Assembly (NCBI GenBank): GCA_016745055.1
Contig: JADGDF010000027.1
Coordinates: forward strand, 1-34,436
Direction of reading: 5' to 3'
From: Thiotrichaceae bacterium
GTDB lineage: Bacteria > Pseudomonadota > Gammaproteobacteria > Beggiatoales > Beggiatoaceae
Length of the DNA stretch: 34,436 bases
Every line of letters starts with the position of its first letter. The first letter of the stretch is position 1. The translations under genes were made by a program, and so were the position numbers. Of the stretch, positions 22,556-30,877 are shown one piece after another. The notes below the pieces were generated by a model that did not search any database, was not told where the DNA came from, and saw only the letters and a list, made by a program, of their open reading frames with translations.

Positions 22556-25500
22556 CTACCTTACGATGTACATTTCAACTTGACCTGTGCCAACACTATT
22601 ATACTCACCCGATATTTCAAGCGTGTAATCTCCTTCTTGCAGGTAGTAAATTATGGCAGCATCACTGGTATTAATTTTACTAACTACTTGTTTTTCAAAA
22701 GCTTTTTGATCAATTAAGGTATTTAATTTCCAGTCCTGATTACTTACAATAAAATTTCCTTCAGGAAAAGTACGCAAAATTAAATGTGCATCTAGGTTAG
22801 TTTGAATGCCTTGTTTTTGCATCCCTTGACCAATGCCTTGTAAAATCACACGAGCTGGTCCACCTCTGATTGAAAATCCCCCATATAGATAATCTTCGGG
22901 TTGTTTTCCAACATGAGCTGTCGTTATTAAGCTTGTGAGTGAACTGCTTGGTGATAAATCTAAATCATAAATAGCGATTAAGCCAATACCAGGTGGACTG
23001 TTAGGTGCTGGAAACACATTAACTGTATAGGTTGCATTTGGTTGAAGATTAAATATATTGTTTGTAACTCCTGATATTTGTTGACCGCTTTCATCTAAAA
23101 CTGCCATGATAGGTTCAAGCGGCTTATCCTGGCCTTTAGGTATTCCCATCACGCCAATAAAGACTTGTTTTAGTTGAGAGCCTTCTATGGAAAACTTGGC
23201 TTTAGGATAGGCTGTGCTGTGACTGACGTAGAAACGCGTACTCAATCCAACAAAACTACCTGGCGCACGTCGTCGCGTATTGCCAAAATCTTTTGTTACA
23301 GCATATCTGACACCAGAACCAATGAATACTTCATTGGAAGTTTGTTTAATAGTAGTTAGGCCAAGATGATCATCAGACAGCTTTGGGTCAGCGACTCCGT
23401 CACCATTAAAGTCAAATTTAAATTCGCTGCCAGTCTCTTTTATAGCTAGAATAGCTGCATTTAAACTTTGACCCGCTGCAATTGTTCGCCAAAATAAATG
23501 CAGTAGTTTCATATTATAAAAGCCAAGCACCATTCTATTTGCATCAGCCATAGGCGTAGAACTTGATGATAAGCTTTTTAGAAAGGTATCAGATTTGCTG
23601 TTATTTGGATAGGTACTGTAGTAAACAACAAAGACAGGAATTTCTTTCCGTCGTAGTTCATCCAAAGCAGCCATAATCTCAGTACCACATCTCGTCAGAA
23701 ATTCAGTCGACAGATAAATTGTCAGAAACTTGGCGTCTTCATAGCTTGTACTTAAGCTACTTTTAATATTTCCACATGTTGCCTTTTTAGGTTGAATTCT
23801 TTCACATTGTAAAATGTCACAAGCAGGAGAGTTGGATAAATAGTCAATATCATTTAAGGTATAGCCTTGATAAGAAAGGGCTGCATAGATTTTCTCAACT
23901 TCTAGCTCTTGTTGATTTTCAATGATAAGCACCTTAAATTTTCTGTCTCCGACAATTTCAAATGTTTTGCTTTCAGAAATAACATGATTACCTTGTCTGG
24001 CGTAAACTTTAGCTGTATATTTTGTACCAGACTCATGGATACTCTCATTTTTCAGCGTTTTTATATGATTAAAGCTGTAGTTTCCTTTATAAATATTATT
24101 GTTGTATACCGTATCTTTTTGGGTGTAGTACAAAGTCAAATTAGGCATACCAATAATGGGTTTTGACTCATTCAAGGTTGATACAATGTTTTCATCGGAG
24201 ATTTCTGGAGGAATAAATGTCACCCAAACATCAACTGGAAGGGAAGATGATTGGCTAATTTGCACATCAAGGTGTAGCTTTTTATTAAGTTTGCTATTGT
24301 AATTACTTAAATCAACTCTTGGAGGAGATAAATGGATTGCTTCAATCTTTAATTTGTTTTTACTAACGTCTATCGGTGTACCAATTTCCCAGTCTGAGGA
24401 AGCATTTTTCGATGTAATGTTAGGTTTTTGTCCGCTATTAATATTATTTTCCGCATTTTTAAAGGCTTGCCTGACCGTTTGGCCGTTTAAAATCTCTCCC
24501 CAAAATAGCGTGGAAAAAGTCATCCCTTGCTTGGAAAAAGTCGCTTTCTCATCTGAGGAACTGGTAATGACAAAGTCGACATTTTTGTTTTCACTAGCCA
24601 ACTCCTTAAACGAGCCTGAATAGCAGGCATCATAAATAAACTGGATTTTATAGTTTATTTTAGGGGAACTTTTATTAACTTCATTATTTCCTAAGTTTGC
24701 CAGTACTTTTTTAACAAGAGAGTAGCTCAGATTTTGATCGAGATTAACGTTATCTAAAACAATTTCTCCTTCTATCTCCTTTTCATCGCCATCTTTTCCA
24801 CCGATACCATGAGAAATAATATAAATTAATATAGAATGTTCATCTTGTTGAATGTTTCCCTCACCTTGTAAATAACCATCATCATTTTGAGAGAGTTTAT
24901 TCCTTTTGGTTGCCCATTGAGTCACTGCATATTCGACATTTTCTACGGTCAAGTCCCCATTTATATCATCCGCCAATCCATTACCATCAATGTCGATATT
25001 ATCTACATTCTTTTCCTTGGTATTGGTACTTTTTTCATTATGTGCAATATAATAAATATCTTCTTTGCGAAACCCTTTGCTGCGCAAAACCCAGTAAGCT
25101 TGATTTGCATTGACTTTCATAGCATTGTTGTAATGAACGTCCCCATCTCGTCCAGCTATAATCACTGCTTTTTGTTTAGGAAAGTACTGCCCTGTTTTAA
25201 ATGATTGAATTCTGTTATATGTAGCGTCAGCAACATAGACTTGAGTCCCATCGGCCGTCGCAGCAATACCACTTGCTCTTCCAAATTGGCCTGCATAACT
25301 GCCTTTTTCACCCCATATAGCGGCTAATTTTCCATGCTCTTTACTATTTAATTTGTGAATTTGATTAGTTTCAACATTGGACACGTAAATATAATCTTGT
25401 TTATCTGAACTAATAAATAAAGGGTTATCTAAAGGAAAATCTAATTGATGGCAACGGCTATTATTATTACAAGGCCCATTTTGCCATGTTTCAATAAATT

Positions 25501-27358
25501 CACCAGATTTAGTAAACTTTTTAATATCATGTCGGTAAGCATCGCTGACAAACACAAAATCTTTTGTGACTGTAATGCCAAAAGGCAGTTCAAATTTGTC
25601 TACATCACTGCCTCTTTTTCCAAAACTGTATTGATACACCCCCTCTTTCGTAAACACATCAACCGACGCACGAAAACTATCTACAACATAAACATAGTTT
25701 TCATCAACAGTAATCCCTGAAGGTACTATAAAGCCTTGGTATGGAGTATTATGGTTAGCTAATTGTTCCAACTCCCAAAAGGAATTAAGCAAGTACAAAG
25801 GATCATCTAAATTTAGCTGGGACATATCTAAATTATCAATAGCTTTAGGTAAAAATCCCCATTCTTTTATTAGTTGATCTAACTGTTGAGGTGCAAATTT
25901 TTGAACCGAAAAATTACCTAAATTCGTCACATAAATAAACCCATCTTCATCCACAGCAATTCCCATTGGAAATAATAATGAATTTTTTCCAATGATAGAT
26001 ACATCTTCTTTTGAAGCAAGATTTCTTTTAACAACGCGATGATTGAGCATATCTGCCACATAAAGATGACTTTTGGAGTAAGTCATGCCTAAAGGTGTAT
26101 TAAATTGCCGTTCATCACCACTGCCTGAACGCCACTCATGCTCTCCCTGTTCCTTTGTTGCACCATCTTGTGCTAGCGTATATTGTACGATTGAATTATT
26201 AGGGTAACTGTAAATAACATAGGCTTTATCTTGATAAACAGAAACAGCAACAGGTAGTAAAGCATCCTGATTTAAAATGATCTCTGAACCTTGTACACTA
26301 AATAATTCTAGGAGAGACGATTTTAGCAAAAATCTTTCAAAGTTAGCAGAAATATTTTCTTTGATAAATCTATTAATTATATCAATACCAATCTCAGTTA
26401 AACTATTTAACTTGGATATCAAGTTATAGAATTTCGATTGTTTTATCCTATTAATTTTTGTTGTTTCCTTTTGGTTTGAACGGCTGTTCCATTCCGTAAT
26501 AAATTGACCATTTTCATCAAACTTGAGAATACGGTTGTTAAGTCGATCCGCAACATAGACATTATTACCTTCGTCTAACGTAAGATTTTTTGGAAAATTA
26601 AAAGTATCTCTATCACCTAAATCATTACGCTCCCAAGAATTCCAAGTATCATAATACTGAATTCCCTCTTTTGTGACTGAATATCGACGTATTTGATCAG
26701 GTTCGCGGTCTACTAAATATAAATACCCATTACTCCCCATATCCATAGCCAACAAGTGTTTAATTGACCCTTCTGGAGTCTCTGATACATCCCAACTTCC
26801 TAAAACATTACCTTTCAAATCAAATTTAGCAATTTTATGTTTAGGTTTAGCAACCCATTGGTAAGAGTTACTTTGCGTATCAAACTGACGCACTATTTCT
26901 GAGGAGTTTGTGCCTACCACATAAATATTTTCATCGTCATCAACTACTAGGTCACTTCCTCCAACAATTGAACGTAACTCACCAAATTCATTTAATAATT
27001 GGCCATCTAGTGTAAATATACGTATGAAGTGAGAAAAATCTGCGTACCTTCTGCGGTACAACACATAGATTTTGTCATGCTTGATCTCAATTTTTAGCGG
27101 TGCAAAATGTTGATGGCTATCTAATTTCCACTGCGTAATAAAGTAGCCATGAGAATTTAATTTGATGATTGAACCACTATTGGTGTTGGCAAGATAAATA
27201 TTACCGTATTTGTCATTAGCAATATCCATTGCTTCATCAAAATACCAGGGTTGTTCTAAGACAGGAAAGTAATTAGTAAAATGGTAACTTTCTATTGTTT
27301 CAGAACAGGTCGCAGAAGTGGTCAAAAACAGGAAGAAAAATAAATAAACCAGTCTCAT
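22556..27358 (-). CDS. Giant exported NHL-propeller protein with active and degenerate C13/caspase-like domains
   Basis: The protein has 1600 residues, with a signal peptide of about 18-20 (MRLVYLFFFLFLTTSA). Residues 30-725 hold about eleven NHL repeats (LYVADMLNHRVVKRN, IYVTNLGNFSVQKF), fitting two propellers. Residues 730-985 form a clan CD peptidase domain: VIIAGRDGD at 732, a Ca-loop-like DIDGNGLADD at 789-798, catalytic H850 (ISHGIGG) and C912 (YDACYSGSF), and FWGEILNGQ at 952. A beta-rich linker follows (about 1000-1135). Residues 1141-1335 repeat the fold (FKVLIIEN; FWRTIAAGQ at 1289) but have E1219 and S1248 where His and Cys should be. The end (about 1480-1600) has GGFSIRGGP...GQVEMYIV, a beta domain also seen on other large exported proteins. 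GAGG precedes the ATG. Confidence 0.85.
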   Translation of the reverse strand: MRLVYLFFFLFLTTSATCSETIESYHFTNYFPVLEQPWYFDEAMDIANDKYGNIYLANTNSGSIIKLNSHGYFITQWKLDSHQHFAPLKIEIKHDKIYVLYRRRYADFSHFIRIFTLDGQLLNEFGELRSIVGGSDLVVDDDENIYVVGTNSSEIVRQFDTQSNSYQWVAKPKHKIAKFDLKGNVLGSWDVSETPEGSIKHLLAMDMGSNGYLYLVDREPDQIRRYSVTKEGIQYYDTWNSWERNDLGDRDTFNFPKNLTLDEGNNVYVADRLNNRILKFDENGQFITEWNSRSNQKETTKINRIKQSKFYNLISKLNSLTEIGIDIINRFIKENISANFERFLLKSSLLELFSVQGSEIILNQDALLPVAVSVYQDKAYVIYSYPNNSIVQYTLAQDGATKEQGEHEWRSGSGDERQFNTPLGMTYSKSHLYVADMLNHRVVKRNLASKEDVSIIGKNSLLFPMGIAVDEDGFIYVTNLGNFSVQKFAPQQLDQLIKEWGFLPKAIDNLDMSQLNLDDPLYLLNSFWELEQLANHNTPYQGFIVPSGITVDENYVYVVDSFRASVDVFTKEGVYQYSFGKRGSDVDKFELPFGITVTKDFVFVSDAYRHDIKKFTKSGEFIETWQNGPCNNNSRCHQLDFPLDNPLFISSDKQDYIYVSNVETNQIHKLNSKEHGKLAAIWGEKGSYAGQFGRASGIAATADGTQVYVADATYNRIQSFKTGQYFPKQKAVIIAGRDGDVHYNNAMKVNANQAYWVLRSKGFRKEDIYYIAHNEKSTNTKEKNVDNIDIDGNGLADDINGDLTVENVEYAVTQWATKRNKLSQNDDGYLQGEGNIQQDEHSILIYIISHGIGGKDGDEKEIEGEIVLDNVNLDQNLSYSLVKKVLANLGNNEVNKSSPKINYKIQFIYDACYSGSFKELASENKNVDFVITSSSDEKATFSKQGMTFSTLFWGEILNGQTVRQAFKNAENNINSGQKPNITSKNASSDWEIGTPIDVSKNKLKIEAIHLSPPRVDLSNYNSKLNKKLHLDVQISQSSSLPVDVWVTFIPPEISDENIVSTLNESKPIIGMPNLTLYYTQKDTVYNNNIYKGNYSFNHIKTLKNESIHESGTKYTAKVYARQGNHVISESKTFEIVGDRKFKVLIIENQQELEVEKIYAALSYQGYTLNDIDYLSNSPACDILQCERIQPKKATCGNIKSSLSTSYEDAKFLTIYLSTEFLTRCGTEIMAALDELRRKEIPVFVVYYSTYPNNSKSDTFLKSLSSSSTPMADANRMVLGFYNMKLLHLFWRTIAAGQSLNAAILAIKETGSEFKFDFNGDGVADPKLSDDHLGLTTIKQTSNEVFIGSGVRYAVTKDFGNTRRRAPGSFVGLSTRFYVSHSTAYPKAKFSIEGSQLKQVFIGVMGIPKGQDKPLEPIMAVLDESGQQISGVTNNIFNLQPNATYTVNVFPAPNSPPGIGLIAIYDLDLSPSSSLTSLITTAHVGKQPEDYLYGGFSIRGGPARVILQGIGQGMQKQGIQTNLDAHLILRTFPEGNFIVSNQDWKLNTLIDQKAFEKQVVSKINTSDAAIIYYLQEGDYTLEISGEYNSVGTGQVEMYIVR

Positions 27359-27574: not shown

Positions 27575-27928
27575 CTACACAGCAAATGACGAACCACATC
27601 CACATGTGGTATTAGCATTAGGATTACGAATGACAAACTGTGAGCCTTCAAGACCTTCACTGTAATCAATTTCTGCCCCGACCAAATATTGGTAGCTCAT
27701 TGGGTCAACTAACAATTTTACGCCTTGATTTTCAACAACCGTATCTTCTGTTTCCGTTGTTTCTGCAAAGGTAAAACCATACTGAAAACCTGCACAACCA
27801 CCGCCTTGCACAAAAACACGTAGCATTAAATTATCATTGTTTTCTTCTTCAATCAGTTGTTTGACTTTGGAAGCGGCACTATCAGTAAAAATTAAAAGAG
27901 GAGGGATTTCTTCTTCAACAGCATTCAT
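27575..27928 (-). CDS. erpA: Iron-sulfur cluster insertion protein ErpA (A-type carrier)
   Basis: Cytoplasmic A-type carrier that delivers 4Fe-4S clusters to apo-proteins, in E. coli including the isoprenoid enzymes IspG and IspH. The protein has 117 residues. The three cluster-binding cysteines are present: C45 ([11 protein letters not shown]), C109 and C111 (TCGCGSSF). The GFQYGF context and 117-residue length favour ErpA over IscA or SufA, and no isc/suf genes are near. AGGAG lies 9 nt before the ATG. It is divergent from the CHAT gene (96 bp between) and lies upstream of the giant caspase-like gene with 216 bp between. Confidence 0.93.
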
Positions 27929-28010
27929 AGCACATTACTCCTGGGTAAAAATAAGTAAGAAGTTATCATGCGGTTAATAACCAACAAATTCAATACCTTC
28001 AAATTTATAT

Positions 28011-28016
28011 TATAAT
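28011..28016 (+). promoter_or_regulatory. TATAAT box immediately before the CHAT gene start
   Basis: A perfect -10 box ends 8 bp before the ATG at 28025. Transcription from it would begin within a base or two of the start codon, giving a leaderless message. No good -35 is seen (ATTCAA at 17 bp). Confidence 0.3.
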
Positions 28017-28024
28017 AACATGTC

Positions 28025-29704
28025 ATGATTGAATTTACCCCTTTTGTTATCCAACCGCAAGCTAAACACTTTGCAAACCAACAAAATTTATATCTGCTTG
28101 TTCAACAACTAACGCATTGCTATCGCACGCATCAAGTTCAATATAGTTTGTTACAAGAAATAGGTTATCTTTTGTGGCAAACACTTCACATAGATTTACC
28201 TTTTATTCATGCGTATCAATTGCATAAAAAATTAGCATTATGCATTGAAAGTGACAATCCTTTTATTCAAGGCTTACCTTGGGAAAGTCTTTATCACCCT
28301 GAATTAGGTTTTTTAGGTAAACATCCAGATTTTACTTTATCCCGTTTGCTACCTGGCCAATCAGCCACACAACAACAAATCAAACCGCCACTCAGAATTT
28401 TATTATTCACAATTCCGCATCCAGAATTATTTTTTGAAGAAGAGCAATGCCAATTGTTAGAAATTTTATCACCTTGGATAGCACAAGGTCTAATTTATTT
28501 ACGTATCATGGATGATGGCTGTTTTTCAACCCTTTTCAAACAGCTCCATACGCAAATTTGGGACATCGTTTTTATCAGTGGTCATGCTCAATTCAAAAAT
28601 GGTCAAACTTTATTCAAATTTGGAGATAAATCCTTTCAATTAACCGATTTATTTCAAACGCAGCAAATTGCTTGTATTGTATTTGCTGCCTGTGAAACAG
28701 CTTACACAGATGGCCATTCATATAGTTTAGCGGCACAATTAGTCAATAAAAATATACCGCATGCGATTGGTATGCAAGCAAACTTACTAGACAGAGCAGG
28801 CACCTTATTTGTTAAACATTTTTGTGATGATTTACTGCAACATGGACGTTTAGATAAAGCCACCCAACACGCTCGTCAAGCGATGACTCAACTACTGAAA
28901 AAAAATGAAATTTGGCAGGCAGCAACGGATTTAAGCATAGGCCAATGGTGTTTACCTGTGTTGTATAGCATGATGCCCACTGTGCCTTTATTTTATAATT
29001 TTAAAAATCCTATGCCTCACAAGACTAGATTTTACTCTCTAGGACAGGCGATTGATTTACCAAAAATATTAATTGGGCGTCGAAATAGCTTAAACACCTT
29101 AAAAAATAAAGTATCCAGTTGTAAAGTTAATAAATTATGGGTATATGGCGTTGGTGGCGTTGGGAAAACAGCTTTAGTCAATCAACTAGTGAAGCAGTTA
29201 CAAAATTATCAGATTTTAATTTATTCGGAAAATGAAAAATATTTGTTACACACTGAACTATACCAATATTTTAAACTCTCTAAAAATTCTAGTTGGCACA
29301 ATATTATTGAAAAGCTAGAGCAAAAAAATTGCTTACTTTGGTTAGATAATATACCCATAGATGGTTATCAAGGATTATTTGACATTTTATCAAAAATAAC
29401 TTTACAAAAATTAATAATTATCGTTACTGCAAGACAAAAAAATAATAAAACTAATCATTTTTTTGAATATGTATTAAAACGACCTACTTATGAAAGCTTT
29501 CAAAAATATGTGCATTATTTAAGTTTGCCTTATGAAAAAGTACAAATACAGTTAATGTATAAACTATTCAATGGTAATTTCAAAGGTGTGCAATTACTTC
29601 AAACTTTGCCTTATCAACTAACAGGCCAAGCATTTACCCAGCAATTATTGGTAGTTAAACGTTATTTGCAAAGTTATCAAAAAAATAGGCATCATCAGCT
29701 TTAA
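28025..29704 (+). CDS. CHAT-domain peptidase fused to a STAND-type P-loop NTPase, no C-terminal repeats
   Basis: The protein has 559 residues and is cytoplasmic. The CHAT (caspase-like, clan CD) domain covers about 60-325, with catalytic H187 (FISGHAQ) and C223 (VFAACETA) and the typical IGMQANLLDRAGTLFVKHF region. A P-loop NTPase follows: Walker A YGVGGVGKT ending at K381-T382, Walker B LLWLDN with D441, then IIVTARQ, as in NB-ARC/NACHT proteins. STAND proteins normally continue into TPR, WD40 or LRR sensors; here the chain stops about 90 residues after the NTPase core. Relatives act in cell death or phage defence, which is only a hypothesis here. The only start has no Shine-Dalgarno, and TATAAT ends 8 bp before it. 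Confidence 0.85.
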   Translation: MIEFTPFVIQPQAKHFANQQNLYLLVQQLTHCYRTHQVQYSLLQEIGYLLWQTLHIDLPFIHAYQLHKKLALCIESDNPFIQGLPWESLYHPELGFLGKHPDFTLSRLLPGQSATQQQIKPPLRILLFTIPHPELFFEEEQCQLLEILSPWIAQGLIYLRIMDDGCFSTLFKQLHTQIWDIVFISGHAQFKNGQTLFKFGDKSFQLTDLFQTQQIACIVFAACETAYTDGHSYSLAAQLVNKNIPHAIGMQANLLDRAGTLFVKHFCDDLLQHGRLDKATQHARQAMTQLLKKNEIWQAATDLSIGQWCLPVLYSMMPTVPLFYNFKNPMPHKTRFYSLGQAIDLPKILIGRRNSLNTLKNKVSSCKVNKLWVYGVGGVGKTALVNQLVKQLQNYQILIYSENEKYLLHTELYQYFKLSKNSSWHNIIEKLEQKNCLLWLDNIPIDGYQGLFDILSKITLQKLIIIVTARQKNNKTNHFFEYVLKRPTYESFQKYVHYLSLPYEKVQIQLMYKLFNGNFKGVQLLQTLPYQLTGQAFTQQLLVVKRYLQSYQKNRHHQL

Positions 29705-29905: not shown

Positions 29906-29989
29906 GCCGGGGTGGCGAAACTGGTAGACGCGCCAGACTCAAAATCTGGTGATGGTAACATCGTGTCGGTTCGAGTCCGACCCTCGGCA
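29906..29989 (+). tRNA. tRNA-Leu (anticodon CAA)
   Basis: The acceptor stem GCCGGGG pairs with CCTCGGC (29982-29988, one G-U), with discriminator A at 29989. The anticodon arm CCAGA/TCTGG holds loop CTCAAAA, giving CAA at 29940-29942, which reads UUG. A long variable arm (GATGGTAACATC) and GGTTCGAGTCC T-loop confirm class II Leu. CCA is not encoded: the gene is followed by TAAA. Confidence 0.97.
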
Positions 29990-30211: not shown

Positions 30212-30877
30212 GTGTTTATTGAATACACTTTTACAATGGATGATGGTAAGGTATTACATTACCATGTTGATTTTACGCGATCTCGTAAAGAAGTCTTATC
30301 TGATGTACCTGATTGGACAAAATTAGATTTTCATCAATGTCCTAATTGTCCATTGATACCAGAAGAATATTCTCATTGTCCTGTTGGTGTTGATGCTTAT
30401 GAAATTCTACTCGGCTTCGCGGATATCTTATCTTGTAATGACGTTGATATCCATGTAAAAACCCCAGAACGTGAATACTTTAAACGCACTGATGCTCAAA
30501 CAGGTTTAAGAGCAATCATTGGTTTTGTGATGGCGAGCAGCGAATGTCCTATCCTTTCTTCAATGCGCGGTATGGCTTATTATCATTTGCCATTTGCATC
30601 AATGGATGAAACAGTTTTTCGGGTGACCTCTTCTTACTTACTCCATCAATATTACGTACACAAACAAAACGGTACGCCAATGGATTTAGAATTTGAAGGC
30701 TTAAAGCAACGCTTCAAAGAAACCCAAACGGTTAATTATCACTTTCTTGAACGCATTCGTGCGGCAAGTGAGGCTGATTCAAACTTGAATGTATTGGCTA
30801 CCTTGTTTACGATCTCATCTATGTTATCTCTTTCTTTAGAACGTCATCTTAAAGAGATTGAGCACTTATTTATTTAA
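30212..30877 (+). CDS. Conserved protein of unknown function with CPNCPL motif (DUF6901-like)
   Basis: The protein has 221 residues and no signal peptide. Near the start are HQCPNCPL (C43, C46) and HCPVG (C56), and later SSECPIL with a fourth Cys near 112, which together could bind a metal. The sections LSCNDVDIHVKTPER, YHLPFASMDETVFR and YLLHQYY recall a widespread proteobacterial family I know as DUF6901; the number is from memory. No catalytic role is known to me. GTG at 30212 is taken as start because relatives begin just before the YxFTxxDG segment; its ribosome site (GGGTG) is weak. The 3' end overlaps the convergent HAD gene by 12 bp. Confidence 0.8.
   Translation: MFIEYTFTMDDGKVLHYHVDFTRSRKEVLSDVPDWTKLDFHQCPNCPLIPEEYSHCPVGVDAYEILLGFADILSCNDVDIHVKTPEREYFKRTDAQTGLRAIIGFVMASSECPILSSMRGMAYYHLPFASMDETVFRVTSSYLLHQYYVHKQNGTPMDLEFEGLKQRFKETQTVNYHFLERIRAASEADSNLNVLATLFTISSMLSLSLERHLKEIEHLFI

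Follow-up and report, generated by a model that had tools for sequence, protein, structure and literature searches.

The CHAT gene and its surroundings

The window, by which we mean the whole 34,436-nucleotide stretch that was analysed, carries on its forward strand a gene for a protein in which a CHAT-type peptidase domain is followed by an NTPase module of an NBD and an HD1 domain (Table 1). The original prediction had assigned this gene to 28011–29704. The end is correct, but position 28011 is the first base of a TATAAT hexamer and the reading frame begins at 28025, an earlier start being ruled out by an in-frame TAA at 28016–28018.

Table 1. Features of the CHAT locus (positions are those of the window).
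Feature	Position	Strand	Basis or remark
CHAT-NBD-HD1 protein, 559 aa	28025..29704, stop included	+	ORF, Pfam, AlphaFold2 model, structure comparison; without WHD, without repeats
CHAT domain, Pfam stretch residues 44–293	28154..28903	+	separase/TPR-CHAT fold match covers residues 1–325
Catalytic His187 codon	28583..28585	+	alignment
Catalytic Cys223 codon	28691..28693	+	alignment
NBD + HD1, NB-ARC type, residues 340–559	29042..29701	+	structure comparison
Walker A / P-loop, G375–T382	29147..29170	+	alignment
Walker B strand, residues 436–441, LLWLD	29330..29347	+	present in window; missing or altered in 7/22 short rows
C-terminal helix, residues 534–557, with R546	29624..29695	+	R546 invariant in short clade only
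TATAAT, possible -10, ends 8 bp 5' of ATG	28011..28016	+	no -35 found
erpA-type Fe-S assembly gene, divergent neighbour, gap 96 bp	27575..27928	-	divergent also at sister locus L038
tRNA-Leu(CAA), 3' of CHAT gene	29906..29989	+	

Pfam recognises the CHAT domain with 75.3 bits (PF12770, cut-off 24). For the NTPase part, every NTPase model listed, NACHT among them, scored below its curated cut-off (NB-ARC, 22.2 vs 23.5; ATPase_2, 25 vs 33.2), an NCBIfam scan of the protein gave no family near cut-off and a sequence search of solved structures gave no match. An AlphaFold2 model (43 rows; pLDDT 90.7, pTM 0.90) predicts a compact two-domain protein, whose best Foldseek matches are Csx29/TPR-CHAT, SAVED-CHAT and separase. 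In VIA-align comparisons, residues 1–320 superimpose on TPR-CHAT (Z 22.2, 280 aligned residues, 3.7 Å), residues 5–323 on separase (Z 21.6), and residues 340–559 on both residues 145–411 of NRC3/ZAR1 (Z 16, 219 aligned) and CED-4 (Z 15.3). Because the matched NRC3/ZAR1 range is what we take to be the NBD plus HD1, the window protein ends where a WHD would begin. The original prediction, that the protein stops soon after its NTPase core, was thus correct, and the WHD is missing too.

The PF12770 score, the His-Cys dyad and the caspase/separase-type fold identify a CHAT peptidase by sequence and model, for which protease action is predicted. As for STAND/NB-ARC proteins of the NLR type, the P-loop and the NBD plus HD1 fold are present; the profile cut-off is not reached, and the WHD and C-terminal repeats are absent. 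H187, C223 and K381, which the original prediction had called intact, are invariant columns of a 20-row alignment. In NLRs, a WHD histidine takes part in nucleotide coordination (PMC7583971); this contact is absent from the window protein, which has no WHD.

Sensor repeats are absent from the reading frame, from its Pfam matches and from the downstream DNA, in agreement with the original prediction. The 201 bp between the stop codon and the tRNA are interrupted by stop codons in each forward frame and give no significant match to long homologues. An assembly error at the stop (29702–29704) that hides a WHD-TPR frame is unlikely, given 22 short homologues that include those of the single-contig genomes G002 and G028. 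With PADLOC 2.0.0, the window protein gave weak partial matches only (best E 2.6e-4 over 91/448 positions), no known anti-phage model being matched over most of its length, and seven long relatives gave TPR-driven matches, none of them convincing.

Two genes away from the CHAT gene lies a second caspase-like protein (22556–27358, minus strand; 1600 aa), in which NHL/ScyF-like beta-propeller repeats are combined with a caspase-like domain of Peptidase_C13 type and a hydrophobic stretch at the N-terminus. On the far side of the tRNA, a GTG-initiated gene (30212–30877, plus strand) encodes a DUF6901 protein (213.8 bits). The window's genome also holds, on G000:C326, giant frames of 1811 and 1824 aa (L003 and L004) about 5.5 kb apart, the latter combining a protein kinase with an AAA-type ATPase in one protein.

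Conservation and origin of the short form

Homologues of the protein fall into short forms, which end as it does, and long CHAT-STAND-TPR forms. Of 57 related genomes searched, 31 contained a match, and a family-wide profile search gave matches in 35 of 42 genomes at E 1e-20. With frame length and a match that extends to the profile end as criteria, intact short forms are found in 22 of the 42 genomes and 15 of the 25 genera of the window's family (the kin of Beggiatoa, Thioploca and Thiomargarita), the named hosts being Thioploca, Thiomargarita, Parabeggiatoa, Halobeggiatoa, Albibeggiatoa and Beggiatoa. Not counted are G057, where the 5' part is frameshifted (a locus of the same type as L133), and G061, where the form is cut by a contig end. 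L133 itself (Thioploca HyVt-590) is a short form with a frameshift near its 5' end, and L118 (Chlorobiaceae) a long form with a frameshift after HD1; each is either a pseudogene or an assembly error. Long relatives were found in Chloroflexota, Chlorobiota, SAR324, Thiothrix and others as well. Searching contigs with alignment A1 gave 55 loci; with the single protein, none was confirmed. In a class-wide search, for which three candidates per genome were scored, 7 of 369 genomes matched, four of them from the window's family. The match frames of the other three were 1039, 853, 760 and 512 aa long, the last with an internal stop, and no match outside the family reached the short-form end, a loose negative given that scoring. 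We found no account of a short CHAT-NBD protein in the open-licence PMC literature.

To compare the two forms we used a 64-row alignment, with 22 short and 39 long rows, leaving out L087 (cut by a contig end), L118 (frameshifted) and L121 (gapped in the NBD); the rows of alignment and tree are related sequences and not independent samples. All 22 short rows end 6–16 residues after R546, an arginine that is present in every short row and in none of the 39 long ones. Most of the long rows that are complete continue for at least 259 residues beyond it. TPRs were found in all eight long relatives scanned. The dyad residues H187 and C223 and the P-loop signature GK[ST] are retained in 22/22 short and 39/39 long rows. 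The residues that follow in the nucleotide-binding core have fared differently: the Walker B aspartate is kept in 15/22 short rows vs 39/39 long rows and the sensor-1 arginine in 18/22 vs 39/39, with at least four changes of each on the tree. The Walker B strand is wholly absent from four short rows of two lineages (L090, L091, L131 and L062), and milder changes are seen in L059 and L051, which have Glu at or near the site, and in L044, where the Asp lies one position earlier.

Mean identity is 43% among short vs 53% among long rows in the CHAT domain, 46% vs 59% round the P-loop and 25% vs 44% in the middle of the NBD. The C-terminal part stands at 42% in both, indicating that it is as well kept in the short clade as in the long one, though it now forms the protein end. 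Outside HD1, the short clade has evolved more quickly than the long one, a pattern that is also compatible with relaxed constraint.

A tree was built from alignment columns 1–400, from which the differing part is excluded. On it, the short rows occupy one side of a branch with support 100/99 when L087, L118 and L121 are left out; three apparent changes between short and long were traced to L087 and L118, and one change is left once all three rows are omitted. When the tree was rooted with seven distant CHAT-STAND rows, in a quick search in which some outgroup branches were very long, the short rows formed a clade (SH-aLRT 100), and the long rows within which it is nested were paraphyletic. The simplest history suggested by these trees is a single loss of WHD and TPRs in an ancestor within the window's family. 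Judged from alignment and tree, the short form is derived from CHAT-STAND-TPR proteins and is not damaged but conserved.

In long relatives, HD1 is followed by some 175 conserved residues (region A3), called a WHD from their position, and then by the TPRs. A profile of this region gave 15 matches in 13 of the 42 genomes, 13 of them in long CHAT frames, one in a weak fragment with an internal stop (G061) and one in a free gene (G005). The separate sensor suggested by the original prediction therefore has a mixed outcome: the search for the missing part in the window's own genome (G000) gave no match to the WHD profile, and one other genome has a separate WHD gene. This gene, in Albibeggiatoa (L141:3611-5317, on G005:C204), has an SD sequence of its own (GAGG), and the DNA upstream of it codes for neither CHAT nor NTPase; its 568-aa product begins at the WHD and continues with TPRs and a C-terminal hydrophobic helix. 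This single case in 42 genomes corresponds exactly to what is missing from the short proteins. A sensor partner of another kind than WHD-TPR could still exist.

Start region and gene neighbourhoods

We scored an SD sequence as at least 4 nt of AAGGAGGTGA at 3–13 nt from the start. As originally predicted, the window gene has no ribosome binding site, no SD of at least 4 nt lying within 20 nt upstream. By the rule, none of 20 short genes has an SD, or of 22 when L142 and L143 are added; 17 of the 22 start codons are ATG and five are TTG or GTG, and for five rows we chose the start by alignment instead of taking the first codon. Among control genes an SD was found in 62/141 (at least 200 aa) and 80/183 (at least 150 aa), in 21 of 39 divergent first genes, compared with which the short set (0/22) is lower (Fisher p 9e-6), in 4 of 9 long relatives and in 6 of 9 divergent lipoprotein partner genes. 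Inside the window, four other genes passed the control filter and one of these has an SD. Shuffled short-gene leaders give an expectation of 8.1%, or about 2 of 22, so the absence of SDs is at background for the base composition and not below it, and is low only relative to real genes. Judged from their leaders, an SD-independent start is a trait across the short clade.

The TATAAT described by the original prediction is present, followed by the 8 bases 28017–28024 before the ATG. The window contains 33 exact copies of this hexamer vs 47.6 expected from shuffles, and no -35/-10 pair was found in 27900–28100; on its own, the hexamer is weak evidence of a promoter. A TATAAT-like hexamer 7–8 nt from the start is shared, among 20 rows, by the window and L043 only, the others having none or another spacing. 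Leaders of close pairs, read by eye, likely place a -10 about 25–31 nt upstream, and AT-rich blocks further upstream are shared within the L039/L042 and the L057/L058/L090 sets. The spacing in the window would fit a leaderless transcript, and such strict spacing is not conserved across the clade.

Among the first 19 homologous short loci, nine have a divergent lipoprotein gene that lies next to a gene for an FlgO-type (PF17680) lipoprotein. By eye, L142 and L143 show the same arrangement, which brings the count to 11 of 22 short members (L039, L041, L042, L043, L056–L059, L061, L142 and L143). Conserved neighbours are thus seen for half of the short forms, but the window gene is itself beside erpA, as is its tree sister in G023 (L038), the only two such loci. 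In the window's genome the lipoprotein pair lies on another contig with no short CHAT gene beside it; L040 and L052 are on short contigs. The divergent lipoprotein has no Pfam family, and the hosts in which it and the FlgO-domain lipoprotein are kept beside short CHAT genes are mostly gliding bacteria. Long forms have a different neighbourhood, with a protein of about 156 aa that has no Pfam match and often a small zinc-ribbon protein, at 6 of 9 loci (L046, L045, L048, L050, L053 and L060).

Proposed role, alternatives and comparison with known systems

We consider it probable, with moderate confidence, that the window protein is a functional member of an old, conserved CHAT-NBD-HD1 clade that arose once by loss of the WHD and TPRs, and that it acts as a nucleotide-binding cysteine protease controlled by its expression, a partner or both. 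All that follows HD1 would have been lost once from a CHAT-STAND-TPR ancestor. The resulting protease would bind nucleotide through its NBD-HD1 mainly as a structural/assembly or stability module, as suggested by the P-loop in every row and the loss of Walker B and sensor-1 in several lineages. In the usual view of NLR-type proteins, the WHD and sensor keep them inactive; because both are missing here, the short protein probably does not hold itself off in the NLR manner, and its activity would then be set by the amount made and/or by a partner in trans. A short divergent promoter region and weak translation without an SD could keep the amount low, and a partner protein could control activity in trans. 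A likely output would be that it cleaves some cell protein, in a limited way, during filament development, stress or cell death. For the short form, we infer from sequence and model that it acts as a protease, binds nucleotide and assembles, as well as what its target and role may be.

The strongest competitor, although an unlikely one in our estimate, is that the protein is an unregulated housekeeping peptidase whose NBD-HD1 is a mere scaffold and which, in filamentous cells, trims a protein of the envelope or of division, much as HetF (CHAT, TM, TPR) works at the divisome. The lipoprotein and FlgO-type genes beside 11 of 22 short genes are consistent with this, as are the large filamentous or giant hosts (PMC4853749) and the identification of HetF as a divisome component in Anabaena (PMC8406250). 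However, the shared neighbourhood may be merely inherited gene order, neither TM nor TPR is predicted in the protein (by the compact two-domain model and, for TPR, by Pfam), and the 20 of 42 genomes without an intact copy indicate that the short form is not essential to the family.

More doubtful still is a split receptor, with the short protein as its effector half and a WHD-TPR sensor, encoded by a gene of its own, as the switch. In its wider form, giant sulfur bacteria would have split an NLR-like caspase receptor into a soluble CHAT-NBD-HD1 half, nucleotide-binding and in several lineages apparently non-hydrolysing, and a free, membrane-anchored WHD-TPR half that, at least in Albibeggiatoa, provides the absent lid and sensor in trans, the sensor being replaced elsewhere by another partner or by translation control; this we regard as equally improbable. 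The free Albibeggiatoa gene begins where short forms end, and its genome has a short form (L062). Yet the two lie on different contigs, a long form in the same genome could be the parent of L141, the free gene is confined to one genome in 42 with no WHD-profile match in the window's genome, and 15 of the 22 short-bearing genomes have no long WHD form.

That the short protein helps a long CHAT-STAND-TPR paralogue which does the sensing is very improbable: the two belong to the same subfamily and co-occur in seven genomes, but 15 genomes have the short form only, presence of the two is independent over the 42 genomes (odds ratio 1.09, p 1.0), so an obligate partnership is unsupported, and the window's genome has no long-WHD member. 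The shortened relic raised by the original prediction, a decaying CHAT-STAND-TPR gene whose 3' part was lost in the window's genome, could draw on the missing WHD and repeats, the lack of an SD and the faster evolution of the short clade, but we reject it as scarcely credible given the end point common to all 22 short rows of a single clade across 15 genera, the invariant dyad and P-loop, the new invariant C-terminal arginine and the lack of any remnant downstream. A shared end point of the homologues is also what the original prediction, together with conserved neighbours, had named as its refutation.

Across 15 genera, the clade has retained a caspase-like protease together with a core for nucleotide binding while losing both the WHD and the sensor, raising the question of how a death-type protease is kept safe without a built-in lock. 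In a protein this compact (559 aa), the role of nucleotide binding could be studied separately from sensing. Giant sulfur bacteria carry many caspase-like genes, with 59 metacaspase genes in Ca. Thiomargarita nelsonii (PMC4853749), and the short form is a candidate factor in their biology.

Like the window protein, HetF is a CHAT protease of a filamentous bacterium, but it has TM and TPR segments, and the part of PMC8406250 available to us describes no NBD-HD1 for it; the window protein has no TPR in Pfam and is compact and two-domain in its predicted model. Among the closest known systems are the long CHAT-STAND-TPR proteins of Chloroflexota, Chlorobiota, SAR324 and Gammaproteobacteria (for example L088, L104 and L096), which share the same dyad and P-loop and align with it end to end over CHAT and NBD-HD1 at about 26–34% identity, and which differ in carrying a WHD and TPRs and in having kept Walker B and sensor-1 in 39/39 rows. 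TPR-CHAT/Csx29 of Craspase and SAVED-CHAT share the CHAT fold and the Cys-His dyad, but the window protein has an NTPase module where those have TPR or SAVED, and their switch is Cas7-11 RNA recognition or a cyclic nucleotide. The NBD plus HD1 fold is shared with NB-ARC proteins such as CED-4. CED-4, too, is without a C-terminal repeat sensor, but it keeps its WHD and its CARD recruits a separate caspase, whereas the window protein carries its protease as a fused domain and has lost the WHD.
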